Below the pieces are notes generated by a model. That model saw nothing but the letters and a program-made list of their open reading frames with translations. It had not been told where the DNA came from and searched no databases. This document shows, piece by piece, positions 8,399 through 40,238 of a DNA stretch of 44,173 nucleotides (within the stretch, counting starts at the first letter, position 1; each line of letters starts with the position of its first letter). The DNA is taken from the IMG/VR virus record IMGVR_UViG_3300036832_000887, positions 1-44,173 of that record; one strand, written 5' to 3'. The DNA comes from a virus. Position numbers and translations under genes: made by a program.

Positions 8399-8410
8399 CA
8401 GGAGGCTCCC

Positions 8411-8599
8411 ATGACCAAGGATCAGGCGACCGAAATCCGCACTCACCTCAAGGCCGCGCTCAATGCGCTCGCGGATGCGGCCGAGGCGCTCGCCGACGAA
8501 GAGGATGAGACGGCGTTGGAGATCGGCGAGAGTATCGAAGAGGCGCAACAGGCGGCCGAGACCGCCGAGGCGGCGATCAGCAACATTATCGGCACCTGA
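8411..8599 (+). CDS. Small acidic coiled-coil protein
   Basis: The 62-residue protein starts after a perfect AGGAGG with 6-base spacing. It is strongly acidic and alanine-rich, a single long helix (LADAAEALADEEDETALEIGES). No family is recognised. The strong ribosome site and clean end argue that it is real. It lies in a block of tiny genes that alternate strands. Confidence 0.65.
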   Translation: MTKDQATEIRTHLKAALNALADAAEALADEEDETALEIGESIEEAQQAAETAEAAISNIIGT

Positions 8600-8601
8600 C
8601 G

Positions 8602-8856
8602 GTGATCGAGCCGGGCGTGGAGACGCTCGCCGTGGACACCTGCCCCGATTGCGCCGCTCACCAGTTCCGGCGCGGGCCAGCCGGCGGGATGTCGGTCAAT
8701 ATCGAGTGCTGCCAGTGCGGGTCGCGGTTCAATGTCGCGGTCTACACCGGCCGGCTGATCAGCGCGGAGCGTATCGCCTACAACGGCGAATGGCCCGACC
8801 GAGGGTTCTGGGACGGTGTCAGCGGCGCTTTGTCGGGGCCTTCTGCAGACCCTTAG
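8602..8856 (+). CDS. Small zinc-ribbon protein
   Basis: The 84-residue frame starts with GTG two bases after the previous stop. An in-frame ATG (MSVNIECCQCG) lies 29 codons in, but starting there would remove the first cysteine pair. CPDC at 14-17 and CCQC about 20 residues later form a Lar-like zinc ribbon, often seen in restriction-alleviation and other small phage proteins. A following FNVAVYTGRLISAERIAYNG segment is conserved-looking. The 3' end overlaps a leftward gene by 38 bases. Confidence 0.6.
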   Translation: MIEPGVETLAVDTCPDCAAHQFRRGPAGGMSVNIECCQCGSRFNVAVYTGRLISAERIAYNGEWPDRGFWDGVSGALSGPSADP

Positions 8857-8980
8857 CCGTAGGCTTGTTGCCCTGCATCAGCCCGGCCTTGTTGAGCGTG
8901 CCGTACACCGCGCGCGGGTTGCCGGGGTACTCGCGCTTGAGCTTGGTTTCAACCTGGGCAACCTTGGAGCCTTTTGGCAT
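8819..8980 (-). CDS. Small conserved phage protein (MPKGSKVAQVE type)
   Basis: The 53-residue basic protein, with V-Y-G-T-L-N-K in the middle and a Lys/Arg-rich tail, matches a type of tiny protein that recurs in phages and prophages without known function. GGAG precedes the ATG at a spacing of about 9. Its ATG (8980-8978) shares bases with the ATG of the rightward gene at 8979, as a CATG face-to-face pair. The stop lies inside the end of the convergent zinc-ribbon gene. Confidence 0.7.
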   Translation of the reverse strand: MPKGSKVAQVETKLKREYPGNPRAVYGTLNKAGLMQGNKPTAKGLQKAPTKRR

Positions 8981-9263
8981 GAGACAGTTCTCCCCGAGCG
9001 GCCGATTTACCAGCATCGATATCGCCTGGCGGCGGTTTTCCCGGCTCTTGCCAAGCACGCCGACCGAGCGCGACGAATTGGCCTTTAAGGGCGGGGCGGC
9101 GGTGCTCTTCTACGCGATCCTCGCCATGTTCGACCCCGGCGGGGAGCCGACCGACGACGACCTCGGCAAAATGGACATGCTGCACCGCGAGGTCGAGGCG
9201 TTCACAAAGACCTTTGACCAGCGGATCGTCGCGCTGCAGCGGCCCGCGCCTCCTCGTCAATAA
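8979..9263 (+). CDS. Hypothetical protein divergent from 8980
   Basis: The 94-residue frame starts with an ATG that overlaps the start codon of the opposite gene. GGAG lies 10 bases upstream, within the other gene's first codons. A hydrophobic patch (GGAAVLFYAILAMF) is followed by an acidic helix containing DDDLGKMDMLHREVEAF. No family is recognised. The last 62 bases overlap the end of a leftward gene. Confidence 0.55.
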   Translation: MRQFSPSGRFTSIDIAWRRFSRLLPSTPTERDELAFKGGAAVLFYAILAMFDPGGEPTDDDLGKMDMLHREVEAFTKTFDQRIVALQRPAPPRQ

Positions 9264-9645
9264 GCCGCCGACGACGCTTGAGGCAGGCGCTCATCGTCAT
9301 AATAGAGACCTTGCCATAAGCGCGGGTGGCGGCGGCGGCGTAGCGCACACTGCTTGTCAGCATCTCGTGCACGACGCGGTCCTGACCGTCGCGCGCCTGG
9401 ACAACGAGCGGCTCGTGCGGCGCGGCGGCGGCGATGGCCTCGGCCTTGCTCTCGACATAGCCGAGGATGCTGGCGAGCGTCTCCTCGCTCGGGTCGAGCC
9501 GCAGGCGCTTGGTATCCTCCCAGGCGCGCGAAAACAGCACGCCGGAACCCATATCGGCAGCCCAACAGTCACCCGACGCGAATGGCGGAATATCGGTGCC
9601 GCGCGAGATCCACACCGCGCGTTTTGGGTGCTCGGGATCGAGCAT
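9202..9645 (-). CDS. Hypothetical protein at the end of the small-gene train
   Basis: The protein has 147 residues if it starts at MLDPEHPKRAVWIS. The frame is open further upstream to the end of the preceding gene (9696), but I see no ATG or GTG there, so a rarer start is possible. It has a beta-like start, a G-x-G-V-L-F-S-R-A-W strand, an alanine-rich helix and a very basic end (KRRRRLIDEEAR). No family is recognised. It is the last gene of the leftward train that begins near 13144. Confidence 0.55.
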   Translation of the reverse strand: MLDPEHPKRAVWISRGTDIPPFASGDCWAADMGSGVLFSRAWEDTKRLRLDPSEETLASILGYVESKAEAIAAAAPHEPLVVQARDGQDRVVHEMLTSSVRYAAAATRAYGKVSIMTMSACLKRRRRLIDEEARAAAARRSAGQRSL

Positions 9646-9695
9646 CGCGGCGAGCTGCGCCGCGATATCGCTGACCGGCTCGGCCTCGGTCGGGG

Positions 9696-10019
9696 TCAGC
9701 GGATGGCGCGCTTCCAGGCCGCGTAGCTCAGGTCGGTCTTGAGCAATGGCATCCGCCGCGCAAACAGTTTGCGGGTCTCGGGCTTCCTCACCCATTCCTC
9801 CCCCCACTGGTTGCCGCCCCAGCGCAGCTTGAGGCGGCGGCTGTCGTGCGTCGCCATGGTCCCGGCAAAGTGGTCGTGCACCGCCTGCGGGGTGCTGAGC
9901 GTCCAAAAGCTGCGCCAGCCATCGGTCGCCAGGATCGGGACCAGACCATCATCCTCGGGCAGCGCCCTCTGCGCCCGGTTGCGGGCGATGGCGCTCTTGC
10001 GCCGGCTCAGGCCTCGCAT
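9696..10019 (-). CDS. Hypothetical basic protein
   Basis: The 107-residue protein starts MRGLSRRKSAIARNRAQRAL, a basic amphipathic N-terminus. It contains a Trp-rich middle (DGWRSFWTL, LRWGGNQWGEEWVRKPETR). A GGAGG lies rather far (about 13 bases) upstream. No domain is recognised. The basic start could bind nucleic acid, but nothing else supports that. Confidence 0.6.
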   Translation of the reverse strand: MRGLSRRKSAIARNRAQRALPEDDGLVPILATDGWRSFWTLSTPQAVHDHFAGTMATHDSRRLKLRWGGNQWGEEWVRKPETRKLFARRMPLLKTDLSYAAWKRAIR

Positions 10020-10072
10020 GGGGTGCTTTCTTTCCTCCGATTAGTCAAAACACCGCGCGAGACCGCACCGGC

Positions 10073-10318
10073 CTACCGCGTATTCAACCGGGGATCTTCA
10101 GCGGTCTCGTCGGTGCCTGAGATAAAGCGCCAGTAGCGCTCGGCGCGCTCGAGCACCACGATGAGCGGCGGCGGGGCCGCGCCATCGGGGCCCGCCAGGG
10201 CCATCGAGAGACACTGCAGCCGCAGATGGTGCAGCGTGTAGTCGGGGACGCAGCGGACGTCGCCCGGCCGGGCCCGCAGCGCTGGGTCGTCGGCGAAATC
10301 AAACTCTTCAATGGTCAC
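10073..10318 (-). CDS. Hypothetical protein, GTG start
   Basis: The 81-residue frame starts at GTG 10318, preceded by GGAG and overlapping the previous stop (GTGA). An acidic N-terminus (IEEFDFADDPALRARPGD) is followed by DYTLHHLRLQCLSMAL and a strand I-V-V-L-E-R-A-E-R-Y-W-R-F. No family is recognised. Start choice rests on the ribosome site and the four-base overlap. Confidence 0.6.
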   Translation of the reverse strand: MTIEEFDFADDPALRARPGDVRCVPDYTLHHLRLQCLSMALAGPDGAAPPPLIVVLERAERYWRFISGTDETAEDPRLNTR

Positions 10319-10668
10319 GGCGGTGCTCTCCTCTGCCAGGCCCCGATATCGGTCGCGTTGCCGCCACAATCGAGGCACTCGACCCCGATGGGACTATGCG
10401 GATCGGCCCGGCCGCCGCAAAACGGGCAGCGCAGCAGGACGACGATCCCGCCATAGTCGCTGGTGTGCCCGAGGTAGAGCGCGGCGATGCGGTCCCTCTC
10501 GCTTGGCGAGGCGATGCTCGCGGGCGGCAGCCAGTTGTTGTTTTTGGTGACCGTGTAGCCGCGCCGCTCCAGATAATCAAAGGCCTCTTCTGGATCGGCA
10601 AAATAGCCGCCCTCGGAGGCCAGCTCGGCGCGGCGGTAAGCGCCGCGCAGCGTCGTCGAGCGCCTCAT
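10315..10668 (-). CDS. Lar-like zinc-ribbon protein
   Basis: The 117-residue protein starts at MRRSTTLRG, where its ATG overlaps the upstream stop (ATGA). The C-terminal 40 residues hold LLRCPFCGGRAD and a second pair VECLDCGGNATD followed by W. That is the zinc ribbon of the Lar (restriction alleviation) family. The N-terminal part is unrelated and contains GGYFADPEEAFDYLERRGY. A role in countering host restriction is possible but cannot be concluded from the zinc ribbon alone. Confidence 0.65.
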   Translation of the reverse strand: MRRSTTLRGAYRRAELASEGGYFADPEEAFDYLERRGYTVTKNNNWLPPASIASPSERDRIAALYLGHTSDYGGIVVLLRCPFCGGRADPHSPIGVECLDCGGNATDIGAWQRRAPP

Positions 10669-10850
10669 GCCTCGGGACCGCGCAGTCGCCGTCGGCGGCG
10701 CGATGCCTTCACCCGGCATCGGTCGGAGCAATACTGGCGACGCTTGGTTGCCGCGCCCGGCAGAATAAAGAACCTCTCGGTACAGCCCGGCCCTTTGCAG
10801 CGCGCGATCTCAAAGAGTGCGATGCTAGCATCGGGCAAACTGGTGCTCAT
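10665..10850 (-). CDS. Small CGNR-like zinc-finger protein
   Basis: The 61-residue protein has C-x-x-x-x-C in A-R-C-K-G-P-G-C, then R-R-Q-Y-C-S-D-R-C-R and an arginine-rich tail (ASRRRRRLRG). This resembles the short CGNR-type finger fused in many bacterial regulators. The very basic tail suggests nucleic-acid binding. Both ends overlap neighbours by four bases, so it is part of the operon. Confidence 0.65.
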   Translation of the reverse strand: MSTSLPDASIALFEIARCKGPGCTERFFILPGAATKRRQYCSDRCRVKASRRRRRLRGPEA

Positions 10851-11293
10851 GCCTCGGTCCCCCGTTCCCGCACTGCCGCCATCGAGCGGCGCGCGGCCTC
10901 TCTGCGGCGGTCGCAATAGACGCACTGGCCTGGCGGGGCATAAAACCGGGCCGGCGAGCGTGTCGGTTCGCGGATCTCGGTCGGCTCGCCCGCCGCGTCG
11001 GTATCGTCGCGCCACGCGGGGCGCGTGCTGCGCCGCAACGCCTTGTGCATGACCTTCTGCTCGGCAACAGTCAGGTACCGCGTCTCCTTTGGTGGAGGAC
11101 CGGCGACGAGACCGTCAGCGCTCGTCGCTGCGGATGACGCTGCCGGTTGCCCCGCCGACCTTTGGTGGGGACCACCGTGCCGGTCCTCCATAAGCACCCG
11201 ATTGCGCTCCTCGATGCGCTGGGCTGGTGCCCCGCCCTGGCAGCGGTGATTGTGCTCGCGTATCCCGCAGATCCGGCATTTAGGCGGGGTCAT
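10847..11293 (-). CDS. Two-zinc-motif protein, paralogue of 12911-13144
   Basis: The 148-residue protein starts at MTPPKCRICGIREHNHRC, an N-terminal C-x-x-C...H...C knuckle. The C-terminus (FYAPPGQCVYCDRRREAARR) repeats almost exactly the C-terminal motif of the gene at 12911-13144. The middle is low-complexity apart from a helical segment L-T-V-A-E-Q-K-V-M-H-K-A-L. Function unknown. The conserved ends and variable middle suggest two binding modules joined by a linker. Confidence 0.65.
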   Translation of the reverse strand: MTPPKCRICGIREHNHRCQGGAPAQRIEERNRVLMEDRHGGPHQRSAGQPAASSAATSADGLVAGPPPKETRYLTVAEQKVMHKALRRSTRPAWRDDTDAAGEPTEIREPTRSPARFYAPPGQCVYCDRRREAARRSMAAVRERGTEA

Positions 11294-11465
11294 GGGTGTG
11301 GAAGATCTCATCGATGGCCGCCGAGGTCTCGCAGCCGGGACAGCCAAAGCACTCTTCGCTTGGTACCCAGCGGCACCCGCAGACCTCGCACTTGATGCTG
11401 CCCTCGGCCGGCCGCTCGGGCTGCAGGGTGCCGCGTTCTCGGTTGGCCGGGATCCCAGGGTGCAT
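11280..11465 (-). CDS. Small four-cysteine zinc protein
   Basis: The 61-residue protein starts at ATG 11465 by TGATG overlap with a 12-codon ORF; a GTG sits one codon upstream. It contains CEVCGCRW and CFGCPGC, a typical zinc ribbon. It overlaps the next gene by 14 bases. No further family can be named. Confidence 0.6.
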   Translation of the reverse strand: MHPGIPANRERGTLQPERPAEGSIKCEVCGCRWVPSEECFGCPGCETSAAIDEIFHTHDPA

Positions 11466-24857: not shown

Positions 24858-25056
24858 GCAGCGCGACATTACGGCCGCTGTCAAAGCTGTTGAGCGTGCA
24901 GGGAAAAATGTCGCAGCGGTCGAGGTTGACGGCGAGGGAACAATTCATATTTATGTTGGTGGCGGCAACAAAGCCGTACAAAGCAAGAGCCGTATCGCTC
25001 TGGAGAAGATGATCGATGACGAAGAAGCTTGCCTACGTTCAAAGCTTCACCGCTGA
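24832..25056 (+). CDS. Small protein upstream of integrase
   Basis: The 74-residue protein starts at MASRPLNFRQRDITAAVKAV after GAGGAGAAAC. A-A-V-E-V-D-G-E-G-T-I-H-I-Y-V-G is the pattern of a small protein often found directly before phage integrases. It overlaps the integrase gene by 41 bases. It may influence integrase expression by coupling, or act as an excisionase-like factor; neither is proven. Confidence 0.6.
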   Translation: MASRPLNFRQRDITAAVKAVERAGKNVAAVEVDGEGTIHIYVGGGNKAVQSKSRIALEKMIDDEEACLRSKLHR

Positions 25057-26176
25057 GAACGGCACCCAGTACAACTACCTGCGCTTCCAGCAGCAGCCGC
25101 GCGTCGAGCTGCCCAAGGGGCCAGCCAGCGGGGCTAACTTTATGGCCGTCTACAAGCTGGCGCTGAAGGCGGCGCAGGCGAAAGCCGAGCCAAAGAAGGA
25201 GCGTCCCGCCCGCGCAAAAAAAAATGTGCCGTCCACCGGGGCCACAATTCGTGACCGGGTGAACGGCTATCTCAATAGTGCCGCGTTCAAGAAGCTGGCC
25301 CCGAGCACACAGTACGGACGCCGCCGACTACTGGTCGGTTCACTCGACAGCAAGAAGCCGTCTTGGGTTGATCAGTACGGCGATGCGATCTGGGACGAGC
25401 TGACGCCCAAAGACTTCAAGCGCATGCTCCATGCCCGCGCGGAGAAAGCTGGCGAGGCACGCAACTGGCTCAACGCCATTCGGGCAATGGTCAAAGACCT
25501 ACTCGGCGCAGGCGAGATCGAGCTGGACCCGACCTGGGGCATCCGCCCGCCCAAGAGCGACAACCCGGACGGCTTCAAGACCTGGGAGCCAGAGTATCTG
25601 CAGATATACCGGGAATATTGGCCGAGCGGTACGCCGCAGCGGCTGGCCCTGGAGGTGCTCTATTGCACGGGCGGCGCGATCAGCGACGCGGTCAAGCTGA
25701 GCCGCGACAATTTTGGCGAGGACGGCAGCATCCAGTTCGACCGGCAGAAGACCGGCGTCCCATCATGTGCCTGGGTTACGTCTGAGCTGGAGGCCGAGAT
25801 GATCGCTTGCAAACTGATTATCGGCGAGGTCGTCCGGCTAGAAGACGGCGTGACCATCGACCCAGCCGGGATGGTTGCGGGGCCGCTGCTGCGCACCGGC
25901 AAAGGCAAGCGCCTGACATCTACCTATCTCGGGAACCGCGTCCGCGTATGGGCACAGCAGGCAGGCGTCCCGGCTGGGTACAGCGCGCACGGTATCCGCA
26001 AGCGGGCGGTGACGGACGACGCCGAGGATCGGCAGAACCCGGCGACAAACAACGAGCTGAAGGCCAAATACGGCTGGCGCACCAACGACCAGCCCGACCG
26101 CTACACCAGGGCCGCTGACAGCAAACGTATTTCCATGGCACGAGCAGCGCGGCTCAGAAAGGGAACAAAGAAATAA
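25016..26176 (+). CDS. int: Tyrosine-recombinase integrase with altered catalytic arginine
   Basis: The 386-residue protein has an N-terminal arm-binding region to about 80, a core-binding domain at 85-185 (NGYLNSAAFKKLAPSTQYGR), then the catalytic domain. H-G-I-R-K is the His-x-x-Arg box. The nucleophile is probably the Tyr of D-R-Y-T-R-A-A-D, as in alphaproteobacterial prophage integrases. At the first-arginine box, where others have T-G-x-R-x-S-(D/E), this sequence reads T-G-G-A-I-S-D, so the arginine appears to be alanine. The N-terminus has a poly-lysine stretch encoded by an A9 run. It directs integration and excision if active. Confidence 0.85.
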   Translation: MTKKLAYVQSFTAENGTQYNYLRFQQQPRVELPKGPASGANFMAVYKLALKAAQAKAEPKKERPARAKKNVPSTGATIRDRVNGYLNSAAFKKLAPSTQYGRRRLLVGSLDSKKPSWVDQYGDAIWDELTPKDFKRMLHARAEKAGEARNWLNAIRAMVKDLLGAGEIELDPTWGIRPPKSDNPDGFKTWEPEYLQIYREYWPSGTPQRLALEVLYCTGGAISDAVKLSRDNFGEDGSIQFDRQKTGVPSCAWVTSELEAEMIACKLIIGEVVRLEDGVTIDPAGMVAGPLLRTGKGKRLTSTYLGNRVRVWAQQAGVPAGYSAHGIRKRAVTDDAEDRQNPATNNELKAKYGWRTNDQPDRYTRAADSKRISMARAARLRKGTKK

Positions 26177-26335: not shown

Positions 26336-27625
26336 TCATTTGGTGACGCGGAAGTCCTTGACGAACTCGGCCCAGGACAGCGGGTTCACGTCGGTGTTCA
26401 TGTAGCCGGCGTAACCGGAATTGGGGTCGCCCGAGTTCCAGTAGCCGAGCATCACCGGCAGACCGTTCGCCAGATAGCTCGCTGCCGCGTCGTGCATGTT
26501 TTTGACGTAAAGCGGGTTGTCGCCCATGTTGCCCTGCGCCCACTCGGGCACGGCCCATCCCTTGCGGCGCGAGAGGGCCAGGGCTTGGCTTGCGGTGATG
26601 CCGGGCACTTGGTCTTGCTGCCAGCGCGCTGATGCCGGCTGCGTCTGGCTACGCAGGCCGTCATAGGTGTCAATCGCTACGAAATCCACATCGTCGTCGC
26701 CGGGGTAGCACGCCTGCCAGCCGCCAGGTGCGCCGTTGCCATCGGTCATGATCGTGCCGTCTGCGGCGTTGAAGGCGAACTTGGCCTGCGGCATCACTGA
26801 GCGGATGACCGAAGCTATGCGGCGGAAAGCGTTGATGAAGTCAAAGCAATAGGTGGCTCCGTTCTGGAAGCCGCTCTGCCACCCCCATTCGTACCAGCCG
26901 CCCTCAAATTCCCAGATCGGCCGCCAGACCGTCTGGCTGTAGCCGTACCCCATCAACTGTTGGGCGACGGCGCGGTAATGCGTATCAAAGGCCCCGGTGG
27001 CGACCTGGGGCAGCGTGAGGCCGGCGTGCTGCGGGAACGGGGGGAGGTTGAGCCATAGCGCATCCGGCCCGCGCCCCGAGGTGTATTGCCACTGGACGAT
27101 GGTCCACGCTGAACCCTCGTAATTGTCCCACAACCCCCTGTTCGGATCGGGGTCCATCGCGATCCCCGACCCGGTCGAGACGATGCTGCCGGCAGGGTAG
27201 CCGATGCTCTGTTCCCAGTAGGCGTAGTCTGCGGGCAGGGTCCAGACTTGCACTGGCTGGCCGTCTGGGCCGGGCACCCATTGCGGGTGCGCGATGCTCT
27301 CGTTCCACGGCGACGTGACCCCGATGTCGATCAGCTCTCCCGTGCTGGGAGGCGGTGGCGGTGGCGGTGGCGGTGGTGGGGGCGGTGGCGGGGGCGGTGG
27401 CGGCGACGCCAGCGGCGCGCTGCACGACACCATTGTCCTGCCGTGACGGCATGTCCAGCTCCACGGCCCCGCCCCGCTCACCGCCGATGCCTGGCCGACC
27501 GCGCACAGGTTCTGGCTCGGCGCGGTTTGCACCCCGACGCCATCGGCGCTGCCGCATATGGGAACAGGCTGGGCGTGAGCACTCGCCGCGATCAGGGAGA
27601 GCGCGAGCGCGTAGAGTATTCGCAT
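26336..27625 (-). CDS. Secreted GH26-like glycosidase
   Basis: The protein is 429 residues from MRILYALALSLIAASAHA, a clear signal peptide ending A-H-A. Residues 20-75 form a small cysteine-containing domain (W-S-W-T-C-R...M-V-S-C-S-A) common in secreted bacterial proteins. It is joined by 19 consecutive prolines to a catalytic domain. That domain resembles glycoside hydrolase family 26 (beta-mannanase type): a R-P-I-W-E-F-E-G-G-W-Y-E-W acid/base motif, F-V-A-I-D-T-Y-D, and V-P-E-W-A-Q with the probable nucleophile Glu. The usual His before the acid Glu is replaced by Trp. It may degrade a host or capsular polysaccharide. It looks like a lysogenic-conversion gene rather than a lysis enzyme. 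Confidence 0.75.
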   Translation of the reverse strand: MRILYALALSLIAASAHAQPVPICGSADGVGVQTAPSQNLCAVGQASAVSGAGPWSWTCRHGRTMVSCSAPLASPPPPPPPPPPPPPPPPPPPSTGELIDIGVTSPWNESIAHPQWVPGPDGQPVQVWTLPADYAYWEQSIGYPAGSIVSTGSGIAMDPDPNRGLWDNYEGSAWTIVQWQYTSGRGPDALWLNLPPFPQHAGLTLPQVATGAFDTHYRAVAQQLMGYGYSQTVWRPIWEFEGGWYEWGWQSGFQNGATYCFDFINAFRRIASVIRSVMPQAKFAFNAADGTIMTDGNGAPGGWQACYPGDDDVDFVAIDTYDGLRSQTQPASARWQQDQVPGITASQALALSRRKGWAVPEWAQGNMGDNPLYVKNMHDAAASYLANGLPVMLGYWNSGDPNSGYAGYMNTDVNPLSWAEFVKDFRVTK

Positions 27626-27633
27626 AAGCCCCC

Positions 27634-27876
27634 TCAGTGCGGCGGCTGGGCGTGAAGCGCGATGTCCAGGCAACGATCCACCAGGGTGCCGACCAGTTTG
27701 GTCCGCTGGTCGAGCTGGTCATCGAGGAACCAGAGCACGGCCCCGATAAAGATCGCGTTGACCAGGCAGAGCATCAGAAAGGCCGGCGGCAGCGCGGTCA
27801 CCAGGCGCGCGCCCAGGTCGGCCAGTGCGCCGACCGTATTTACAGGTGCCGCTTGCGGGTTGGGGTCATTGGACAT
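27634..27876 (-). CDS. Small membrane protein upstream of glycosidase
   Basis: The 80-residue protein starts after GGAGGAG. One membrane helix (PPAFLMLCLVNAIFIGAVLW) is followed by a charged region (DDQLDQRTKLVGTLVDRC). The stop is eight bases before the glycosidase start, so the two form a transcription unit. A holin-like or export-accessory role is possible. No family is certain. Confidence 0.65.
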   Translation of the reverse strand: MSNDPNPQAAPVNTVGALADLGARLVTALPPAFLMLCLVNAIFIGAVLWFLDDQLDQRTKLVGTLVDRCLDIALHAQPPH

Positions 27877-28023: not shown

Positions 28024-28263
28024 GTGACCACCTATACCGATGACGATGAGCGTCGCCTAAAGGTCGAGCTGATGATCGCCGATATCGACAACAAGCGCGC
28101 CGACACTGAGTACAAGCACGGCCTGTTGCGCTGGGAGCCGTGGAGGCTTGTCATCACGGCGGTTGCTGCCGGTGGGGTGATCGGCGGCGCTCTCGTCGGC
28201 GGGTTAAGCTATCTCGGACGGCAGCCGACACCCATCGTCATCCAGTTACCGCCAGCCAAATGA
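28024..28263 (+). CDS. Small membrane protein 1
   Basis: The 79-residue frame starts at GTG. A polar N-terminus (TTYTDDDERRLKVELMIADI) is followed by one membrane helix (VITAVAAGGVIGGALVGGL) and an outside tail ending T-P-I-V-I-Q-L-P-P-A-K. The tail resembles that of the fourth gene of the set (QIVVHLDQPLSVK), suggesting a duplication. The gene heads four overlapping small membrane genes. Holin or spanin-type lysis is one option; no classical signature is present. Confidence 0.68.
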   Translation: MTTYTDDDERRLKVELMIADIDNKRADTEYKHGLLRWEPWRLVITAVAAGGVIGGALVGGLSYLGRQPTPIVIQLPPAK

Positions 28264-28379
28264 CCGCCATCGAGACGCGCCTCGCGGTGCTGACATGGAT
28301 GGTCGGCGCGCAGATCGCCCTTACCGTTCCTGTGGTCTGGCTGCTGCTGCGCGTCGCCGGCAAGCTTGGTGCGGTATGA
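28260..28379 (+). CDS. Small membrane protein 2
   Basis: The 39-residue protein MTAIETRLAVLTWMVGAQIA plus 19 more is one membrane helix with a short charged start. Its ATG overlaps the previous stop (ATGA). It is holin-sized, but with a single helix. Confidence 0.58.
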   Translation: MTAIETRLAVLTWMVGAQIALTVPVVWLLLRVAGKLGAV

Positions 28380-28510
28380 CCACCCGTGAGCGGCTGCGGC
28401 AGGAGATACGGATGGAGCAGCGCAAATTTGTCGTGCAGGCGCTGATCGCCGCCGCCGCGCTGCTGGCCGCCGGCATCGCCATCGGCATGTCTAGCGGGTG
28501 GTGGTGGTGA
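28376..28510 (+). CDS. Small membrane protein 3
   Basis: In this 44-residue protein a basic, charged start (MTTRERLRQEIRMEQRKF) precedes one membrane helix (VVQALIAAAALLAAGIAIGM) and a W-W-W end. It overlaps the previous stop (ATGA) and ends in a TGATG overlap with the next gene. It is a typical small phage membrane protein. Confidence 0.6.
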   Translation: MTTRERLRQEIRMEQRKFVVQALIAAAALLAAGIAIGMSSGWWW

Positions 28511-28722
28511 TGGCCGACATCAGCGAAGACGACCTGCTCAGGCGCGAGCTGCTGCGGCTCGATGTGCTGCTGCGCAAGAAGCAGGCTTGGTGGGAGCACC
28601 CGCGTAATTTTGCCGTTGTCCTCGGCGTCATCGCCGCTATCGCCGGGATCTTTGGCTACAAGATTGGCTCAGCACCGCAGCAGATCGTGGTTCACCTCGA
28701 CCAGCCGCTCAGTGTGAAATGA
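28510..28722 (+). CDS. Small membrane protein 4
   Basis: In this 70-residue protein a charged helix (SEDDLLRRELLRLDVLLRKK) precedes one membrane segment (FAVVLGVIAAIAGIFGYKIG) and a C-terminal QIVVHLDQPLSVK resembling the tail of gene 1. ATG 28510 overlaps the previous stop (TGATG). With the others it makes a four-gene cluster of unknown function, perhaps lysis. Confidence 0.65.
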   Translation: MADISEDDLLRRELLRLDVLLRKKQAWWEHPRNFAVVLGVIAAIAGIFGYKIGSAPQQIVVHLDQPLSVK

Positions 28723-29986: not shown

Positions 29987-31702
29987 CTAATACTGCGGCC
30001 GGTTCAACAGGCCGGGCGGCGCTGCGCCAGCGAGGAGCGGCGAGGCTTGCCTGATCCCCGTGGCGATGTTCTCCTGCCAGGGGTAGCGGGTCGCCATCAT
30101 ATGCGCCATCAGCCGCTGCATGGCCGGGTTGTACATCGCAGCCGTCGCGCCCGTGCCGGCGAGACCAGCAGCGATATATCTCGGGTCCACACCCTCGTGG
30201 CCGGCAACGCCCGCACCAACGAGGCCAGCGGCGATTGGGATCATGCTGCGGAACGGCGTCCCACTGTCGGGCACGGTTGGCCCCAGGACCGCGCGCGATG
30301 CGTCTGAGATATCCTGACCAAGGGCGGTGCCGCCAGCCACCCGGCTCTTGGGCATATAGGCCCTGACCGCAGCGTCAAAGCCCAACGGCTGGATTGTCCC
30401 AGGGTCCGCGTTTGGCCTGCCTGCCGCAGCCTCAAACCGCTTCAATCTGGCCCAGGTGGCATTGGCGGCCTGGATCTGGGGAGCCTGTGCCGGGCTGACG
30501 CGCTCCAGCCAATCACGCAAGACCGTCTGCGTCTCTCGCAAATGGTCGCCGAGGCCGCGTTCGTCCGAGGTGCTGTTGCCACTGAAGATGCTGTTCGCCG
30601 CCTTCCCCAGGTCGCTCTCTGCATCCTTGAAGCCCTGTCCGGTCATCACGCCGGTTGTCGGATCAATGTGGGGCGTGACGTACTGGTCGAGCATGGCGTT
30701 AAACTGATCGCCCCGGCCGGGAGCCAGCGTTGCGGCCCTGGCCCTGAGGTCGGCAAGGTCGTTTATTGCCGTCTGGTCGAGCGCGCCACCGGCTGCGGGT
30801 ACGGCGTTGTTGTAGGCGTCGCTGGCCTTGCGCTGGACCTCGCGCACCATCTCGCGCCCCGGCTCGCGCGCCTCGACCATTCCGCCAATCGGATCGAGCA
30901 CCCAATTACCGAGACCGACGTTGAGCTGATTAACTGACCTCGACCGGGCCGCCTTGATCAGGTCGCCAGCGATAGGGATGCTGCCGAGGCCCTGCTCAAC
31001 CCGGTTCATCGCGTTGTTCCACCAGCCACCCGACCCGCCCATCAGTTGGCCCGGCGTGGGCCGCACGCCGAGATCCATCATAATCTGATCGTAGCCTGGA
31101 TTACCGGGAGCCGGCGGTCGCGCCATCCTCGGGTAGGCAATCCTGGCGGCGGTGCCGGTGGGCAACGGTGCTGCGGAACCGAGCAGGCCGCCCTGGACGG
31201 CTTCCTTTCCAATGTCAGACGCCGAGGCGCTGGGATCGCCTGTGATTACTGACGAGATCGCGCCGCCTGCGGCGTTGGAGGCGAGGCGCGGCAGGAACCC
31301 AGCCGTCGAGTACGGCATCGCATAGGCAGCCGCCATGGGCAAAACCATCTCGCCGAGGTCACGCTGCGGACTGCTGGCGGGCGGGCTGCCGCCATAGAAA
31401 TCCTTGTAAGCCTGCGCGCGCTTCCCGATCTCGGCAATGTCGCCCTGCGCCCACTGCTGGACGCCGCTGCCCTCAGGCGCGGCGGCAGCCACGCCACGGT
31501 CGAGCAGGGTCGCCGCGACATCGAGCGGCCGGCCCAACCCATAGGTAAAATCTCTGACCGGGTTGCCCGGCGGGCCTGGGATCGGTTGCCCGGTGTTGGG
31601 GTCGACGGGGGTATTTGTGAAGCCCGGAGGCAGCGTGACCGTTCCTGGGATCGGCGGCGCTGTCGTGAAGCCCTCAGGCAACTCAACGTCGTTGGCAGCC
31701 AT
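29987..31702 (-). CDS. Internal virion/ejection protein, Ala/Gly-rich
   Basis: The 571-residue protein begins with a Pro/Thr-rich region (LPEGFTTAPPIPGTVTLPPG) and continues with a long, Ala/Gly/Asp-rich helical part. It includes GSGVQQWAQGDIAEIGKRAQ, hydrophobic stretches (LGEMVLPMAAAYAMPYSTAG) and L-L-A-G-A-A-P-P-G at the end. It is the last gene of the leftward virion block, a position usual for proteins ejected with the DNA. No enzymatic motif is visible. An ejection role is inferred from position and composition. Confidence 0.65.
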   Translation of the reverse strand: MAANDVELPEGFTTAPPIPGTVTLPPGFTNTPVDPNTGQPIPGPPGNPVRDFTYGLGRPLDVAATLLDRGVAAAAPEGSGVQQWAQGDIAEIGKRAQAYKDFYGGSPPASSPQRDLGEMVLPMAAAYAMPYSTAGFLPRLASNAAGGAISSVITGDPSASASDIGKEAVQGGLLGSAAPLPTGTAARIAYPRMARPPAPGNPGYDQIMMDLGVRPTPGQLMGGSGGWWNNAMNRVEQGLGSIPIAGDLIKAARSRSVNQLNVGLGNWVLDPIGGMVEAREPGREMVREVQRKASDAYNNAVPAAGGALDQTAINDLADLRARAATLAPGRGDQFNAMLDQYVTPHIDPTTGVMTGQGFKDAESDLGKAANSIFSGNSTSDERGLGDHLRETQTVLRDWLERVSPAQAPQIQAANATWARLKRFEAAAGRPNADPGTIQPLGFDAAVRAYMPKSRVAGGTALGQDISDASRAVLGPTVPDSGTPFRSMIPIAAGLVGAGVAGHEGVDPRYIAAGLAGTGATAAMYNPAMQRLMAHMMATRYPWQENIATGIRQASPLLAGAAPPGLLNRPQY

Positions 31703-31705
31703 CGC

Positions 31706-34666
31706 CTACCTCGCTGCTGGCTTGTAGGGTTCCATGGTATTCTTGTTTCTCAGCACCCCGTTGTCATTGACGTACGGCTGACCGTCCGGCCCATAGACGA
31801 CCTTGCCGGCGGGCACGGTCTCGACCGCGCCCTTCACCGGCCCCAGCTCCTGCTTGACGCGTGCCACCTCGTCGGCCGGCTTGTTCATGTCGCCCCAGAC
31901 CGTCTTAAAGCTGTCGGGGTTGCGCCAGCCGAGCTGCTGCGCGGTGTTCCAGTCGCGCGCGAGGTACTGGGTCTGCCGCGCCTGGGCGATGTCCTCGCCC
32001 AACATCTGCATGTTAGCGGCCGGCGCGAGGTCGGGGTTGGCCCGGTTCGCGCTGATGGTCTTGAACTCAAACTGGGTCGGGCGGGGCATGCTCTCGCGCA
32101 GCGCCGGCAGCGAGGAGAGGATGTTCTCGTGCATCGCGAGCTGGATGTCGGAGATCTTGTTGCTAGAGATGATCTTGGGATCGATGCCGATGGCGTTGAG
32201 TAGCTTCTGAAACTCCAGCTTCTGCGTCGTGTACGCGCCGCTCTCCATCATCTGATAGGCGCGGTACATCGTTTCGAGGCGCAGCTCGGCGGTACGCGCC
32301 GGCTCGATGCTCTCGGTCCACGCCCTGGTCAGTTCCGGCCCATCGGTGATCAGCTTCTTCAGCTCCTCCGCGCTCTGCGGCATGAACTGGCTCGTCGCGT
32401 CGGGCAGCTTGGTGCCGCGCGGCGTGATCAGCGTGCCCTGTGGCGTCGTCGGCGTGACCGGCGCGGGCATGAGACGCTCGCCGCCAATGATCGTCGGGCC
32501 GGTTAACGGTGCTGGTGCGGCGGGCGCGGGCGCGGGCGCGGGTGACGGAACAGCGCCAGGCGGGCCAGGAGTTGCCGGCGCGGGAGCGCCAGGTGGCGCG
32601 CCGAAGGGAGTACCGGGGAGACCGCCCAGGTTGGCCTGGTTGGTGCCCGTCGCGGCGCCGCGCGCTTGCTCCTGGGGGCTGAGCGCGGTGCCGTTTGGTG
32701 TCAGATCAATCGGCGGTCCTTGTGGGCCATTCGGGTTGGGCACCATTACGTAACGATGCACCCGACCATCCGCGCCCAGCGCCGTGTAGTTGCCATAGAT
32801 CTGGCCGGGATGCTGCGGGTCTTGGCGGACGCTGTTCTCGCGCTGATCAAACGGCGCGTTTTGCTTATTCCAATTATCGAGCTGCGCTTTGTAGACCTCA
32901 AGCTGCCGGTCGTAATACGCCTTGAGGCGGATCTGCTGCTCCTGCTTTGCCAGGTCGGTCGGCAGCGTCGCGAGAGCGGCAACGTCGGGCGGCAGGGTCA
33001 GCCCTCCAACGGACGCCAGCCCGGCCTGCTTCTTCGCCCACTCGATCTCGGCGTTTGAGACATGCGACTGCGCTGCGGGCAGCGGCGGTGGCTCCGGTGG
33101 CAGCGGCGGTGGCGGCGGTGCCCCGGTAACCGCGCGCGGCGGGCCTGGAGGGGCCTGAGGCGGTACAGGCCCTGGTACAGCCGGCGGCGCAACAGGCCCT
33201 GGCGGGCCTATAGCGGGCGGCGCTTGCGGTCCTGCGGGTGGCGGGGTGAAGAGGCCGGGCACGCCGCCGCCCTCCTGCCCCATTTGATCAGCGCGAGCGG
33301 CTGCGGGATTTGGCGCGGGGGGCGGCGCGGGGGGCACAGCGTTATCGCCGGCAACCATCCCGCTGCCTGGCAGCCCTCCCGCTTGAGCGGTGGCTATACC
33401 CTTCGCAATCGCGGCTCCGGCGGGCGATAGCAAACCGCCGGGTGCCGGTGGCGGTGCCGCAGCAGCAACCTGCGGTCCCTGTCGTGGCCCCAGGAGACCG
33501 CTGACCGGGCCGGGGTTGCCCTCCGAGCCGGGAGGCAGCGCGCCACCAGGCAGCGCTGGTGGCGCGGCGGGCGGTACCGTGGGTGGCGCGGCTGCCGGTG
33601 GCGTCTGCCCGACCGGCAGGCCGGTCGGGATATCGCGCGGCTGGGTGCCGCCGGGCGGGACATAGGTGCCCTGACCCGAGGTGCCGGCATATGGGTTCGC
33701 GGGATCGGGCACGGCGGCGGTCTGCGGCGGCGCGCCGGCCGGCTGGCTCCACAACGCCGAGGTCGAGGCGAAGCGCTGATCGTAATTGCCGTTGTTGATC
33801 TTCCGGTTGGGCCGCTCAAAAGCGAGTTGGGCCTCGGTCAGCTCTGCCGGGTTGGTGGCGGCGTCGGCCATTTTGCCGGCCGCGCTCTCCTTGTTGTCCA
33901 GCTCGTGGAGCGCCCAGTCCACTTGCTTCTGCCAGGGCACCTGCGTGCCGACCGGCGCGTTGGCACCGAGGCCGGCGAAGGCGTACATGCCGTTCTCGCC
34001 GGTCAGCCGGGTGCTATTGTGACCAAAGAGACCGTAGCCAATCCCGCCGTCATGGCCCGTATTAGGATCGCCACCGCTCTCGGCGTTGGTCGCCGAGGCC
34101 AGCATGATGGCGCGGTTCCGGCTCGCGCCTTGCGAGAGGGCATAGTTGTAGACATCGGCGGCGGGAACAGCGCCCTGGTTGGCGAGGATCGCGGCGGGTC
34201 CGGTCTTGGGGCCGCCGGGAACGCTCGCGCCGCCCGTGCCAGTGCCCGCACCGCCGCCGCCCTGGTCGCCGGTCGGACGCTTGCCCTGGCCCTCAAGATA
34301 AGCCCGGCGCACAAGGCTCAAGGCCTCGGCATTGCCGGCGTTGGCGAGCGCCAGCGTCGTCTGCGCCGCCTTCATCCGTGCGTCGATCAGGCTGTCGCCG
34401 GCTGTCGTCGCCGCCGCGCCCGCGTGACCCAGTGTCGCGCCAAATGGGACGCCGCCCTTGTACGGCACTGGCATCCCGCCCTGCGCAAAGGCCTCGGCCG
34501 CCGCGCCCAGCGCCCGCGAGCGAAAGGCCTGCTGGACCGCCGGGTCCATCTGCCCGGTCGCCGGATCTTTGAGGAGGCTGCCGGTGTACATCGCCGAGTA
34601 ATCGGTCGGCTTGAACAGGCCCAGCAGGCCGCCAAGAAAGCCGCCGCCGTCGCTCTGGTCGGCCAT
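31706..34666 (-). CDS. Large internal virion protein with lysozyme domain
   Basis: In this 986-residue protein residues about 165-305 resemble the phage-tail lysozyme family (Phage_lysozyme2): A-L-S-Q-G-A-S-R-N-R-A-I-M-L-A-S, the catalytic Glu in N-A-E-S-G-G-D, G-Y-G-L-F-G-H and D-W-A-L-H-E-L. The region from about 310 to 545 and another near 670-760 are Pro/Gly/Ala-rich linkers. A helical C-terminal region follows (TELRLETMY, R-A-N-P-D-L-A-P-A). Such proteins are ejected and cut the peptidoglycan during entry. The ATG overlaps the previous stop (TAATG). Confidence 0.8.
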   Translation of the reverse strand: MADQSDGGGFLGGLLGLFKPTDYSAMYTGSLLKDPATGQMDPAVQQAFRSRALGAAAEAFAQGGMPVPYKGGVPFGATLGHAGAAATTAGDSLIDARMKAAQTTLALANAGNAEALSLVRRAYLEGQGKRPTGDQGGGGAGTGTGGASVPGGPKTGPAAILANQGAVPAADVYNYALSQGASRNRAIMLASATNAESGGDPNTGHDGGIGYGLFGHNSTRLTGENGMYAFAGLGANAPVGTQVPWQKQVDWALHELDNKESAAGKMADAATNPAELTEAQLAFERPNRKINNGNYDQRFASTSALWSQPAGAPPQTAAVPDPANPYAGTSGQGTYVPPGGTQPRDIPTGLPVGQTPPAAAPPTVPPAAPPALPGGALPPGSEGNPGPVSGLLGPRQGPQVAAAAPPPAPGGLLSPAGAAIAKGIATAQAGGLPGSGMVAGDNAVPPAPPPAPNPAAARADQMGQEGGGVPGLFTPPPAGPQAPPAIGPPGPVAPPAVPGPVPPQAPPGPPRAVTGAPPPPPLPPEPPPLPAAQSHVSNAEIEWAKKQAGLASVGGLTLPPDVAALATLPTDLAKQEQQIRLKAYYDRQLEVYKAQLDNWNKQNAPFDQRENSVRQDPQHPGQIYGNYTALGADGRVHRYVMVPNPNGPQGPPIDLTPNGTALSPQEQARGAATGTNQANLGGLPGTPFGAPPGAPAPATPGPPGAVPSPAPAPAPAAPAPLTGPTIIGGERLMPAPVTPTTPQGTLITPRGTKLPDATSQFMPQSAEELKKLITDGPELTRAWTESIEPARTAELRLETMYRAYQMMESGAYTTQKLEFQKLLNAIGIDPKIISSNKISDIQLAMHENILSSLPALRESMPRPTQFEFKTISANRANPDLAPAANMQMLGEDIAQARQTQYLARDWNTAQQLGWRNPDSFKTVWGDMNKPADEVARVKQELGPVKGAVETVPAGKVVYGPDGQPYVNDNGVLRNKNTMEPYKPAAR

Positions 34667-36678: not shown

Positions 36679-37137
36679 CTAGTCCTTGATCCGCCGCACC
36701 AGGGCGACGCCAGCGATCTCAAACCCGAAATGCGCCCAGCCCTTGCGGTCCCAGCCGGCCAGGTCGACGCAATCCAGGGCAGCGGCCTGGGCATCGAGCG
36801 CGTCGAGCAGAACCCGCCACCAGCGCCGCACGCCCGAGCCGGCGATAAACGGCACCTCAAGCGTGCGGCTGCGCGGGAACTGATGGACCTCGGTCACGGC
36901 GACCGCGATGAGCCGGCCGACATCGCGCACGAGGAACATCGACATGCGGCCCAGCATCACGAGCTGCAGGACATCGATTGGCTCATAGCCCCTGATCCGG
37001 TCGGTCGCGCGCTTGAGGATTGGCTCGATGATCGGCCAGCACTGCGCGATCTCGTCGAGCGGCGGCAGCGTGACGCTGATGCCCTCAACCGAGCATCGTG
37101 ATGGCAAAAGTGCAATCGGTATAAGGGACGCTGGCAT
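36679..37137 (-). CDS. GNAT-like protein of the virion operon (start uncertain)
   Basis: The 152-residue frame starts at ATG 37137 inside the upstream gene. A start nearer 37080 would be usual, but no ATG or GTG exists there, only CTG and ATC. The pattern (LQLVMLGRMSMFLVRDVGRL, I-A-V-A-V-T-E-V-H-Q-F-P-R-S-R-T-L, W-x-x-L-L-D-A-L-D-A-Q-A, G-W-D-R-K-G-W-A) matches GNAT-fold proteins recurrent in podophage virion modules. The function is unclear. Catalytic activity is not established. Confidence 0.6.
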   Translation of the reverse strand: MPASLIPIALLPSRCSVEGISVTLPPLDEIAQCWPIIEPILKRATDRIRGYEPIDVLQLVMLGRMSMFLVRDVGRLIAVAVTEVHQFPRSRTLEVPFIAGSGVRRWWRVLLDALDAQAAALDCVDLAGWDRKGWAHFGFEIAGVALVRRIKD

Positions 37138-37429
37138 GATGGATCGTCACCGCTCCCTTGGTGCATTCGACCCAGCAGCTCGGGAGCGCATCCGCAGCGT
37201 GGGCTGAGGCCGGGACCAGATTGACCGAGCTGTAAGGACCAATGCGGCTATCGCTAAAGGTCGAGGTCGTGGCGCTGGGAGCGAGCGTGACACCCATGGT
37301 CGCGCCGATAGCGCCGCGCAGCAGCGAGTTGATCGCCGAGGCAAAGCGCACATTGGTGGCGCGCGCGTTGCCCAGCTCGGCGGGGACCAGCGGAATAACC
37401 GGCGGGCGGTCGAGATCCGCCTGCGCCAT
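37085..37429 (-). CDS. Small virion-operon protein
   Basis: The 114-residue protein starts at ATG 37429 by TGATG overlap with the hub gene. Its C-terminus (WVECTKGAVTIHHASVPYTD) is beta-rich. The N-terminal part includes A-S-A-I-N-S-L-L-R-G-A-I-G-A-T-M-G-V. No family is recognised. A minor tail or hub protein is possible. Confidence 0.6.
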   Translation of the reverse strand: MAQADLDRPPVIPLVPAELGNARATNVRFASAINSLLRGAIGATMGVTLAPSATTSTFSDSRIGPYSSVNLVPASAHAADALPSCWVECTKGAVTIHHASVPYTDCTFAITMLG

Positions 37430-39000
37430 CAAGCAAAGCCTTGGCTGCGGACGCCCTCGGGTCGCGCCGTGACATCGACGCCCTGGAGAAAGTTAAAGCC
37501 CGCGCCCGGCGGCAGCCTCACCTGATACCGCGTGTAGCGTCCCGTGGTGCGCTGCGGGCACTCGCCGAGGATGTTCTCGGCGACAGCGGCCCGGTAGACC
37601 ACGGTCTGGCGTGTCGTCTCGCGCACACCGACCGCGATCTGGGCCGAGACCTGACCGTCATGCAGCGGGCGGCTGCTGATCACCCGGGTGCGCTTGCCGG
37701 GGAACATCTGGGTTTCGGAGGTCTCAATCGTCGGCGGCAGCGCCGGGCCGGTCGTGTAGTTCTGGGTGTGGCTGCTGTCGAACCAGCCGAGCATCGGGTT
37801 GCCCTGGGTCCACACCCGGCTGTCGAGCGAGTACTTGAGCTGCTCAAGGTTGCCGAGCGGGTCCATCTGGTCGAGGTTGTAGCCGGCGGTCGAATAGCTG
37901 GAGCTTTCGACCCACTCGACCGGCGCGGGCGTCAGGTCGAGGAGCGACCAGCGGCCCAGTTCCCAGTTAAAGACCAGCGCCCGGTTGAAGAACCCGTTGT
38001 TCTGCTGCCCGTGGTAGAACCAGAAGATCAGCTTGCGCTGCGGGTCATAGGTGCCCATGACGTTGCGCAGGTAGGTCGGGTCGAGATCGCCAAAAAAGAA
38101 GCGGTCGACCTTCTGGCCGCCAATCGAGGCTGAGCTGCTGCCGTCAAAGGCATAGAACCCGTCCGACCCGAGGTAAAAGCATGTCGAGCGGGCGACGCCG
38201 CTGCCATCGACCAGGCGGCGCGTGACGACCGAGAGTGAGGCGTCGGTCCCGGCCGCGCCCTCGGCGACCGCAAAGTCGAAGATCTTGGGACTGCCGCTGT
38301 AGCCAATCCGGTAGATCCCGCGCTCGCAAAACGCCGCGCCATCGGCCGCCGAGAGGTGCCCGCCGACGAGCTGGGTGACCTCGCCGAGGTCGGTCTGCGC
38401 CAGATCCTGATAGTCGCTCTGCAGCTCGATGGCCTCGTTGCTGCCCGGCACGGGCCAGTTGGTCGGGTCACCGATGGCCGGCCAGGCCAGGCGGAACTGG
38501 ACCTCTCCGTCGCGGCTGTCGACGGTATTGCCGAGCATCAGGAAGTCGCGGATGACGGCGGCAAACCGGCCGCGCGGCGCGTCGGGCGATAGGTCGGAGA
38601 AGGCGCTATCGGTACCCGCCAGGTAGGTCTGGACTGGGTCGACGTAGTTGGTCGCGATGATCCGCTTGCCAAACGAGGTCGTTGACCAGAACCCGTCTGG
38701 CGGGTTCTCGGTGTTGTAGGGCGCGCTCGGGCCGCTGATATCGGTAAAGGTGGTCGCGCCGGTCTGCTGCAGATAGACGCGGCTCTTGGTCGCGGCGAAG
38801 TTGAAGACCACGCCAGCGGCATCGCGATACCCATATGATCCGCACACCTGGGCCGGGAGCGCTGCCGTGTACGGCACCGGCCCCGGCATCGGGCCATAGG
38901 ACGACGCGGTGCGCGGGACGACATTGAGCGCGACGATGGTGCCGGGGTTGGCAAACGCGGGGCCATCCGGCAGCCACTCGCCAAAAGGAAGAAGGGGCAT
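37429..39000 (-). CDS. Tail hub/nozzle-like beta-propeller protein
   Basis: The 523-residue protein starts MPLLPFGEWLPDGPAFANPG, as in phage nozzle/tail-hub proteins. Repeated beta-strands with Trp, Tyr and Phe (FAAVIRDFLMLGN, RFFFGDLDPTYLRN, FWFYHGQQNNGFFNR, ALVFNWELGRWSLLD) suggest a beta-propeller, similar to P22 gp10-like or SU10-like nozzles. It closes the tail channel and connects it to fibres. Its position between the lysozyme-like gene and small tail genes fits. Confidence 0.75.
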   Translation of the reverse strand: MPLLPFGEWLPDGPAFANPGTIVALNVVPRTASSYGPMPGPVPYTAALPAQVCGSYGYRDAAGVVFNFAATKSRVYLQQTGATTFTDISGPSAPYNTENPPDGFWSTTSFGKRIIATNYVDPVQTYLAGTDSAFSDLSPDAPRGRFAAVIRDFLMLGNTVDSRDGEVQFRLAWPAIGDPTNWPVPGSNEAIELQSDYQDLAQTDLGEVTQLVGGHLSAADGAAFCERGIYRIGYSGSPKIFDFAVAEGAAGTDASLSVVTRRLVDGSGVARSTCFYLGSDGFYAFDGSSSASIGGQKVDRFFFGDLDPTYLRNVMGTYDPQRKLIFWFYHGQQNNGFFNRALVFNWELGRWSLLDLTPAPVEWVESSSYSTAGYNLDQMDPLGNLEQLKYSLDSRVWTQGNPMLGWFDSSHTQNYTTGPALPPTIETSETQMFPGKRTRVISSRPLHDGQVSAQIAVGVRETTRQTVVYRAAVAENILGECPQRTTGRYTRYQVRLPPGAGFNFLQGVDVTARPEGVRSQGFA

Positions 39001-39009: not shown

Positions 39010-39603
39010 CTACTGATTGGCGGCGGTCACGAGATTGCCCGGCAGCTTTCCCGTCGCCTTGTACTGCCGGATGGCGGCCTGGAGGGTCTGGTTCGTCTTC
39101 CAGGGGAAGGTGCCGTAACGCATGATGGCGGCATCGGCGACGCGGTCCTGGCTCTCGGGCGAGAAGTCCTTGATGCCGAGACCGGGCGCGAACTCGCCCC
39201 ACAATTCCGGCTCAAACTGGTAGGCTCCTGCGCCGTGGCTGCCCTTGCCGGTGGCGCTGGAGCCGGGCCATTGCGGGAACCCGGCCGGGTCGAGCGGCCG
39301 GCTCATCGCGTTGGGTTGGTAATTGGGATGCCAGGCGAGGGCATCATAGCCGCCAAACTCGCCGCTCTCCGACGACTTGATCAGCTCGCGCAGATCGCCG
39401 AGCGGGATGCCGGCCTTGGTCATGGTTGATGCGGGCAGCCTAGCCGCCGGTGGCGTGACCTGACTGGCAGGCGCGGCGGCCGGGTCGGACGGCAGATCCT
39501 CGGGCGACAGCAGCGAGCGCGGCGGCGGCACCGGGCTGGGCGGCGGGCCGGCCGCCAGACCGGGCGCGATCATCGCGATGTAGTCATCCCATGACCCGGC
39601 CAT
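39010..39603 (-). CDS. Virion muramidase-like protein
   Basis: The 197-residue protein starts at MAGSWDDYIAM (TAATG). A Pro/Ala-rich region to about 80 is followed by a lysozyme-like domain: L-R-E-L-I-K-S-S-E-S-G-E-F-G-G-Y-D, H-P-N-Y-Q, G-A-G-A-Y-Q-F, L-W-G-E-F-A, and D-F-S-P-E-S-Q-D-R-V-A-D. The pattern fits the lambda R-type / GH104 family of transglycosylases, with Glu in S-E-S-G as the probable acid. Its place in the tail operon suggests a virion-bound enzyme that opens peptidoglycan at entry. It could also serve in lysis, as no dedicated endolysin gene is seen. Confidence 0.72.
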   Translation of the reverse strand: MAGSWDDYIAMIAPGLAAGPPPSPVPPPRSLLSPEDLPSDPAAAPASQVTPPAARLPASTMTKAGIPLGDLRELIKSSESGEFGGYDALAWHPNYQPNAMSRPLDPAGFPQWPGSSATGKGSHGAGAYQFEPELWGEFAPGLGIKDFSPESQDRVADAAIMRYGTFPWKTNQTLQAAIRQYKATGKLPGNLVTAANQ

Positions 39604-40238
39604 TACGGGTTCCGCACGTCGGTCTGGATAACCAGGCCGGCCGGGTATTTGGCGCGCCGGTCGGCGAGCTTGATGTCCTCGATCCGCTCCTCGCGCATCC
39701 CCAGCCAGACCGGCATGCGCTGGTCGTCGCCGATGTACGGCGCGGCCATCGAGAGCGTGCCCCAGAGGTAGGTGCTCGGGTACTGGGTCAGGAGCCAGTT
39801 GGTCGGCGCGGCATCGGAGAGCGCTGTCAGGCCCGACAGGTAGTCGAGATGGATGGGGTCGGGCGCATCGCCCGTGTTGCCGGTGATCCGCAGGTTGAGA
39901 CCCTCGATGGTATAGGCGACCGGGTAGCCATCGAGAAAGAGCAGGTTGGTGTCCATGTTGACCGGCGTCTGGTAGGTGAAGTGCCGGCGGCCATTGGCGG
40001 TGTCGATCCACATTGTGCGCAGCTCGCCGTAGTCGAGCGGCAGCGGGATCGTGTCGGTATTGGCGGGCGGGGTGATGACGATGTTCTTCTCGACAAAGCG
40101 GGTCCGCAGCCGGTCGCGCGCCAGCTCCTCAAAGAGCACGATCATGTCGGGGATGGCAGGGGTCAGGAGCGGGTCACCGGGCCGGGCCAGCCAGTCCGCG
40201 ACGCTCGTCTGGAGTTCCGCGTAGGAGCCAAGGGGCAT
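39603..40238 (-). CDS. Head-tail adaptor/connector protein
   Basis: The 211-residue protein begins MPLGSYAELQTSVADWLARP and D-M-I-V-L-F-E-E-L-A-R-D-R-L-R-T-R, the start of SU10-like adaptors that bind below the portal. A beta-rich domain follows (T-D-T-I-P-L-P-L-D-Y-G-E-L, F-T-Y-Q-T-P, Y-T-I-E-G-L-N-L-R-I). The C-terminus has W-L-G-M-R-E-E-R-I-E-D-I-K-L-A-D-R. The layout with the SU10-like capsid and P22-like portal is consistent. Confidence 0.75.
   Translation of the reverse strand: MPLGSYAELQTSVADWLARPGDPLLTPAIPDMIVLFEELARDRLRTRFVEKNIVITPPANTDTIPLPLDYGELRTMWIDTANGRRHFTYQTPVNMDTNLLFLDGYPVAYTIEGLNLRITGNTGDAPDPIHLDYLSGLTALSDAAPTNWLLTQYPSTYLWGTLSMAAPYIGDDQRMPVWLGMREERIEDIKLADRRAKYPAGLVIQTDVRNP

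Follow-up and report, generated by a model that had tools for sequence, protein, structure and literature searches.

What does a phage gain from a secreted glycosidase encoded close to its integrase? The question is raised by IMG/VR record IMGVR_UViG_3300036832_000887, the DNA of a soil phage that was analysed over its full length of 44,173 bases (the window). Its minus strand carries a gene for a predicted exported protein in which the initial annotation had read a signal peptide, a cysteine domain, a run of 19 prolines and a GH26-type domain, and all four are present (Table 1).

The phage genome and the surroundings of the GH26 gene

The window ends in a 127-base direct terminal repeat and is therefore probably a closed genome. 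Profile matches identify a portal gene (phrog_1216, E 8e-143) and a major head protein (phrog_1328, E 2e-93), and a scaffold (phrog_3927), TerL (phrog_2), Erf and exonuclease recombination genes and a CI-like repressor are also recognisable, which together with the integrase indicates a temperate podovirus-like phage. Two lysozyme-like genes are found, ORF 39010-40011 (phrog_90) and ORF 31706-34666, whose 986-aa product has a Phage_lysozyme2 domain (PF18013) next to very long stretches rich in proline. No close DNA-level relative of bases 1-25000 was found in the INPHARED phage collection. A scan of the genome contigs with the GH26 protein gave no relative, the same scan with the major capsid protein gave two distant proviruses only, and the upstream neighbour 29987-31702, used as bait, found none.

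The GH26 gene lies between the integrase and a group of small membrane ORFs, as first described. These four ORFs have weak matches only, the best hint being a holin (phrog_34682, E 0.13) for 28498-28722; they are possibly holin-like, and the family assignment is not confident. The last of the four has a relative in viral contig L003 (14850-15044). Plus-strand ORFs split the GH26 transcription unit from the late genes, whose strand it shares. No sigma-70-like promoter for this unit was found in the window, nor any tRNA, so that this hint of an attachment site is absent. A foreign origin of the gene was considered from base composition and is unsupported, the G+C content being 66.5% in the gene and 65.4% in the genome.

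Table 1. Features of the GH26 locus, in window coordinates
Feature	Position	Strand	Basis or remark
Tyrosine integrase	25016..26176	+	phrog_1, E 3e-13; convergent with the GH26 gene
GH26-family glycosidase gene, 429 aa, predicted exported	26336..27625	-	ATG at 27625; SD GAGGGGG; Pfam PF02156; AF2/Foldseek
GH26 catalytic domain, residues 94-429	26339..27346	-	A3 alignment; AF2 pTM 0.83; Foldseek top 18 PDB
Nucleophile Glu E361 codon, within WAVPEWAQG	26543..26545	-	A3 alignment; CtLic26A alignment
Acid/base Glu E239 codon, within RPIWEFEGGWYEWG	26909..26911	-	A3 alignment; CtLic26A alignment
Linker of exactly 19 prolines, residues 75-93 (P75-P93)	27347..27403	-	Sequence
Cysteine domain, residues 19-71 (C24, C41, C59, C68)	27413..27571	-	Same motif in L003, L158
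Predicted signal peptide, residues 1-18, MRILYALALSLIAASAHA followed by Q; likely cleavage between AHA and Q	27572..27625	-	Sequence reading and hydropathy
80-aa single-TM protein	27634..27876	-	Its stop codon lies 8 nt upstream of the GH26 start
Four short ORFs that overlap; most have a TM stretch	28024..28722	+	Divergent from the membrane/GH26 pair; weak matches only

The 80-aa gene directly upstream, probably co-transcribed with the GH26 gene, had been proposed to encode a membrane-protein partner. A single-TM protein does adjoin the enzyme, but its partnership is weakened because relatives of the 80-aa gene occur in 13 viral contigs without GH26, mostly right after TerL; one relative precedes a phrog_3108 protein (function unknown), and none of the 13 contigs came from the GH26 searches. 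The two genes stand side by side twice, in the window and in L003, in reversed order. We regard a partnership of the two proteins as possible.

Fold, catalytic residues and the Trp before the acid Glu

The signal peptide was called by eye and from hydropathy (11-residue Kyte-Doolittle maximum of 2.5). The N-termini of the GH26 proteins of L003, L004, L131 and L158 are unrelated to it, yet also end in A-x-A and are of the signal-peptide type. The cysteine domain has no Pfam match; L003 and the secreted phage protein of L158 share its motif, which is missing from L004. The proline linker is replaced by a longer P/L version in L002 and is short in L003 and L004.

The window protein scores just above the Pfam cut-off for PF02156 (E 2.6e-4, 20.9 bits against 20.2), while its close homologues in L003 and L004 reach 24.7 and 29 bits, and phmmer against the PDB finds CjMan26C at 2e-4. 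We aligned the window protein with its phage relatives in 20 phage rows (alignment A3). An AF2 model of the catalytic domain from these 20 rows has a pLDDT of 76 and a pTM of 0.83, with a weak region over the first 100 residues of the domain. The best 18 Foldseek matches of this model in the PDB are all GH26 entries, with TM scores up to 0.77 on target length and CtLic26A at the top (E 1.5e-14), and the A3 profile finds GH26 crystal structures, with CtLic26A matched over its length at E 1e-29. An earlier AF2 run from 4 rows (pLDDT 45) was disregarded; its two best PDB matches were nonetheless GH26. E239 is unchanged in 20/20 rows and aligns with the E of LHEANGDWYPW in CtLic26A, and E361, kept in every row that reaches it, aligns with the E of IIIAEFA. 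The lack of a GH26 structural match or of a catalytic Glu pair had been named beforehand as what would speak against the family assignment; given best PDB matches that are exclusively GH26 and the conservation of E239 and E361, both the match and the pair are there. By sequence similarity and by the (beta/alpha)8 barrel type of its model, the protein thus falls within GH26.

CtLic26A, a lichenase of Clostridium thermocellum (PDB 2bv9, 2v3g, 6zpl chain C), is the top structural and profile match across the whole catalytic domain, with both Glu aligned; overall identity is about 18%. Its LHEANG corresponds to IWEFEG in the window protein, which, unlike the lichenase, has an extra N-terminal loop, the cysteine domain and the proline linker. 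The Cellvibrio japonicus mannanases CjMan26A and CjMan26C share with it the GH26 fold and the motifs RP-x-x-E, YPGD, D-x-Y and E; they match less closely in structure (TM on target 0.50-0.58), and their RPWHEHNG becomes RPIWEFEG.

A His directly before the acid/base Glu is typical of GH26 and does not define the family. The window protein has W238-E239 instead, so the change to Trp that had been singled out is real, but it is not peculiar to this protein. The same Trp is present in bacterial GH26 members with GWEFNG (L109, 46.8 bits) and PWEFNG (L114, 39.6 bits), both above the Pfam cut-off, and in a Streptomyces plasmid protein with WEMNG. Eighteen further viral loci also have it, by construction, since they were gathered with the pattern WEFNG-x-W; their GH26-profile E values run from 2e-13 to 7e-73, and two of them, L136 and L146, hold the same protein. 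As it is common to the bacterial members and the viral loci, the Trp marks a branch. In L136 (457-1614) and L146 (3122-4279) the same GH26 frame continues into unrelated C-terminal sequence past GFANKHNTS, which suggests a frameshift or an assembly error.

What sets the window protein apart is a Glu in place of Asn two residues past the acid Glu (WEFEG), seen only here and in L002, L003 and L004; a WEFEG-x-W scan of all viral contigs found no further member. These four proteins form a clade with 100/100 support; its branch is long, at 1.5 changes per site, and all four retain the R, YPG and D-x-Y positions together with both catalytic Glu. Judged from the sequences, loss of the Asn may lower or alter the activity of the clade. 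The tree requires several switches between phage and bacterial labels, at least three of them forced by well-supported branches, so GH26 domains have probably been taken up by phages more than once. When 398 and 297 genomes were sampled with the GH26 profile, the members retrieved were all bacterial and remote.

Distribution of the gene and its relatives

Close homologues of the window protein (71-96% identity) were found in just three other viral contigs, and their settings differ. In L002 the gene again adjoins an integrase; in L003 it stands between TerL and, further on, a relative of the 80-aa membrane gene; in L004 it is found upstream of the major capsid gene, between that gene and a scaffold-like gene, the neighbours in L003 and L004 having been identified partly from reading translations. 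G003 and G004, the two relatives that match the window phage most fully, have many structural genes in common with it at roughly 40-85% identity, and lack both the GH26 gene and the 80-aa gene. From this absence and the different positions in L002, L003 and L004, the GH26 gene is accessory and moves, as would a lysogenic-conversion gene (moron), in agreement with the accessory placement suggested at the outset. It is under purifying selection: dN/dS against the window gene (Nei-Gojobori, own script) is 0.155 for L002, 0.233 for L003 and 0.132 for L004, the last value being rough because synonymous change is close to saturation.

Several other observations were made on the related contigs. The homologue of window 39603-40238 appears as two halves in G003 (36900-37808) and G004 (9911-10801), with a piece similar to window 37085-37432 between them. 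The early region of L002, the window's near relative, is GC-rich and loosely repetitive at 3838-4611 (periods of 10, 19, 34 and 39). TerL of L011 (3968-5986) and L015 (2036-4060) is about 240 aa longer than its homologues and has an intein-like insert that runs from CLAAGTQVLTT to VSNS.

A gene of this make-up, GH26 domain included, had been thought unusual for a phage. GH26-like domains are in fact found repeatedly in phages, both within tail modules and next to lysis genes; it is the form with a signal peptide that is less common. Among relatives of tail-module type, the domain is fused with collagen repeats in L118, stands immediately after the tape-measure gene in L122 and follows short TM genes in L156. 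It is joined to LamG in L139 and to CBM60 in L119, and the L003 protein has an additional DUF4082 domain. The L158 protein, encoded downstream of a portal gene, combines a signal peptide, a ricin-B-like domain and the window-type cysteine domain. In a tail/lysis region of viral contig L131, the genes ahead of a GH26 protein with a signal peptide encode tail proteins, a TM/coiled-coil protein and a lipoprotein rich in proline that weakly matches an Rz-like spanin; the GH26 gene (379-1515), directly 3' of that of the lipoprotein, has WEFNGGWYPW and a C-terminal coiled coil. In L117, a prophage of bacterial genome G658, a DUF2793 tail gene, the GH26 gene and a GH108 endolysin gene are consecutive (6268-11332); used as bait, this GH26 found no viral contig. 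The WEFNG proteins of L118, L122, L131, L139, L155, L156 and L158 share the Trp and the Glu pair with the window protein at 20-29% identity, and most of them, in contrast to it, have no signal peptide and lie in tail modules; traits of the window protein are seen in the signal peptides of L131 and L158 and in the cysteine domain of L158. On the bacterial side, the GH26 relative of L116 (genome G344) adjoins a GT2 glycosyltransferase, with a Bac_transf sugar transferase nearby, in an exopolysaccharide-type cluster. We infer from these neighbourhoods that bacterial surface polysaccharide is favoured over plant fibre as the target.

Phage GH26 genes have been annotated before, and the window gene is not new in kind; it differs as a variant. 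A GH26 ‘mannanase’ is annotated among mangrove soil virus genes (PMC6460857), and the complete genome of the mangrove soil phage GX15bay (MK557849; PMC6460857) has GH26-type ‘endoglucanase’ and ‘mannanase’ genes, one with an N-terminal TM segment. Unlike the window gene, both are of the HEMNG type and lie among glycosyltransferase genes, and tblastn with the window protein gave no match to them. Barrel glycosidases of Pseudomonas phage POR1 and Erwinia phage phiEaP8 are the top matches in a viral structure library, but these are GH5-type proteins, of another family and at 11-12% identity; no GH26 was found among the named viral matches there. The literature searched gave no study that treats GH26 as a depolymerase of phages.

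Proposed function of the GH26 protein

We give about an even chance to the reading that the gene encodes an exported GH26 glycanase that acts on host exopolysaccharide and is either produced by the lysogen or set free at lysis. Counted for it are the GH26 fold with its Glu pair, the signal peptides in the window, L003, L004, L131 and L158, purifying selection, the absence from G003 and G004, the carbohydrate-binding-type domains of L158, L119 and L139, the exopolysaccharide-type cluster of L116 and the tail-module relatives. As sequence and model suggest, the protein would most probably be an active endo-glycanase of GH26 type that cleaves a beta-linked host polymer, either a surface polysaccharide or an exopolysaccharide. 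The Sec signal would carry it into the periplasm of a host that is probably Gram-negative, from which it could get outside if the lysogen leaks or secretes it, or as part of the lysate. The run of prolines would act as a spacer between the catalytic domain and the small cysteine domain; the latter may bind sugar or the envelope. Cutting of the matrix would aid virion spread and may alter the lysogen surface or biofilm; a change of the lysogen surface or passage through exopolysaccharide is the most likely use of the enzyme. Since the substrates of known GH26 enzymes are mannan, beta-1,3-1,4-glucan and xylan, the target could also be a plant polymer.

Other readings were weighed against exopolysaccharide cutting. 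The membrane protein and the exported glycosidase could work at a late stage, together with holin and endolysin or following them, and clear periplasmic or capsular glycan for virion exit, as the spanin-like setting of L131, the endolysin neighbour in L117, the short TM genes upstream in L156 and the location of the window gene on the late-gene strand would suggest. Plus-strand genes, however, lie between the window gene and the late operon, the gene adjoins the integrase, its homologues in L003 and L004 neighbour TerL and the major capsid gene rather than lysis genes, and the phage has lysozyme-like genes of its own, which leaves a lysis-stage role unlikely. An auxiliary metabolic gene that lets an infected or lysogenic host feed on plant or microbial mannan or beta-glucan is somewhat less probable still; the top structural match is a lichenase, and soil viruses carry both the annotated GH26 ‘mannanase’ (PMC6460857) and a GH5 endomannanase shown to be active (PMC6786970), but the single informative bacterial neighbourhood, that of L116, is not a plant-polymer utilisation cluster, and virion or lysis modules are where most of the phage relatives are found.

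We consider it improbable that the Trp and Glu changes near the acid Glu abolish hydrolysis and leave an inactive or lectin-like derivative that only binds glycan. Both substitutions are present in the clade, and its branch is long, but both catalytic Glu and the R, YPG and D-x-Y residues are kept in all its members under dN/dS of 0.13-0.23, and Trp at that place is common to many cellular and phage members. Two further classes were rejected: a virion-bound depolymerase (tail fibre or spike), which L118-type WEFNG relatives do fit, given the signal peptide and the lack of fibre domains in the window protein, and an endolysin, given the lack of a lysozyme, amidase or peptidase match.

The preferred reading of an exported exopolysaccharide-cutting enzyme has a wider, more tentative extension, which we hold to be rather less probable than its opposite. 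The WEFNG/WEFEG GH26 proteins may be a hitherto undescribed class of enzymes by which phages degrade polysaccharides, gained on several occasions and used both fixed to tails for entry and exported for spread or exit, with the window clade as an exported form whose altered catalytic neighbourhood would serve a new substrate. Searches for phage enzymes that attack slime and capsules usually look for tailspikes. An enzyme that is exported, and whose gene is optional, would alter the matrix around the lysogen or the lysate, beyond the virion alone. When six representatives were searched by tblastn against 50,697 phage records, matches were found for the L121 type only, and because this search was almost empty, the GH26 branch may supply enzymes against bacterial polysaccharides that isolate-based catalogues have missed.
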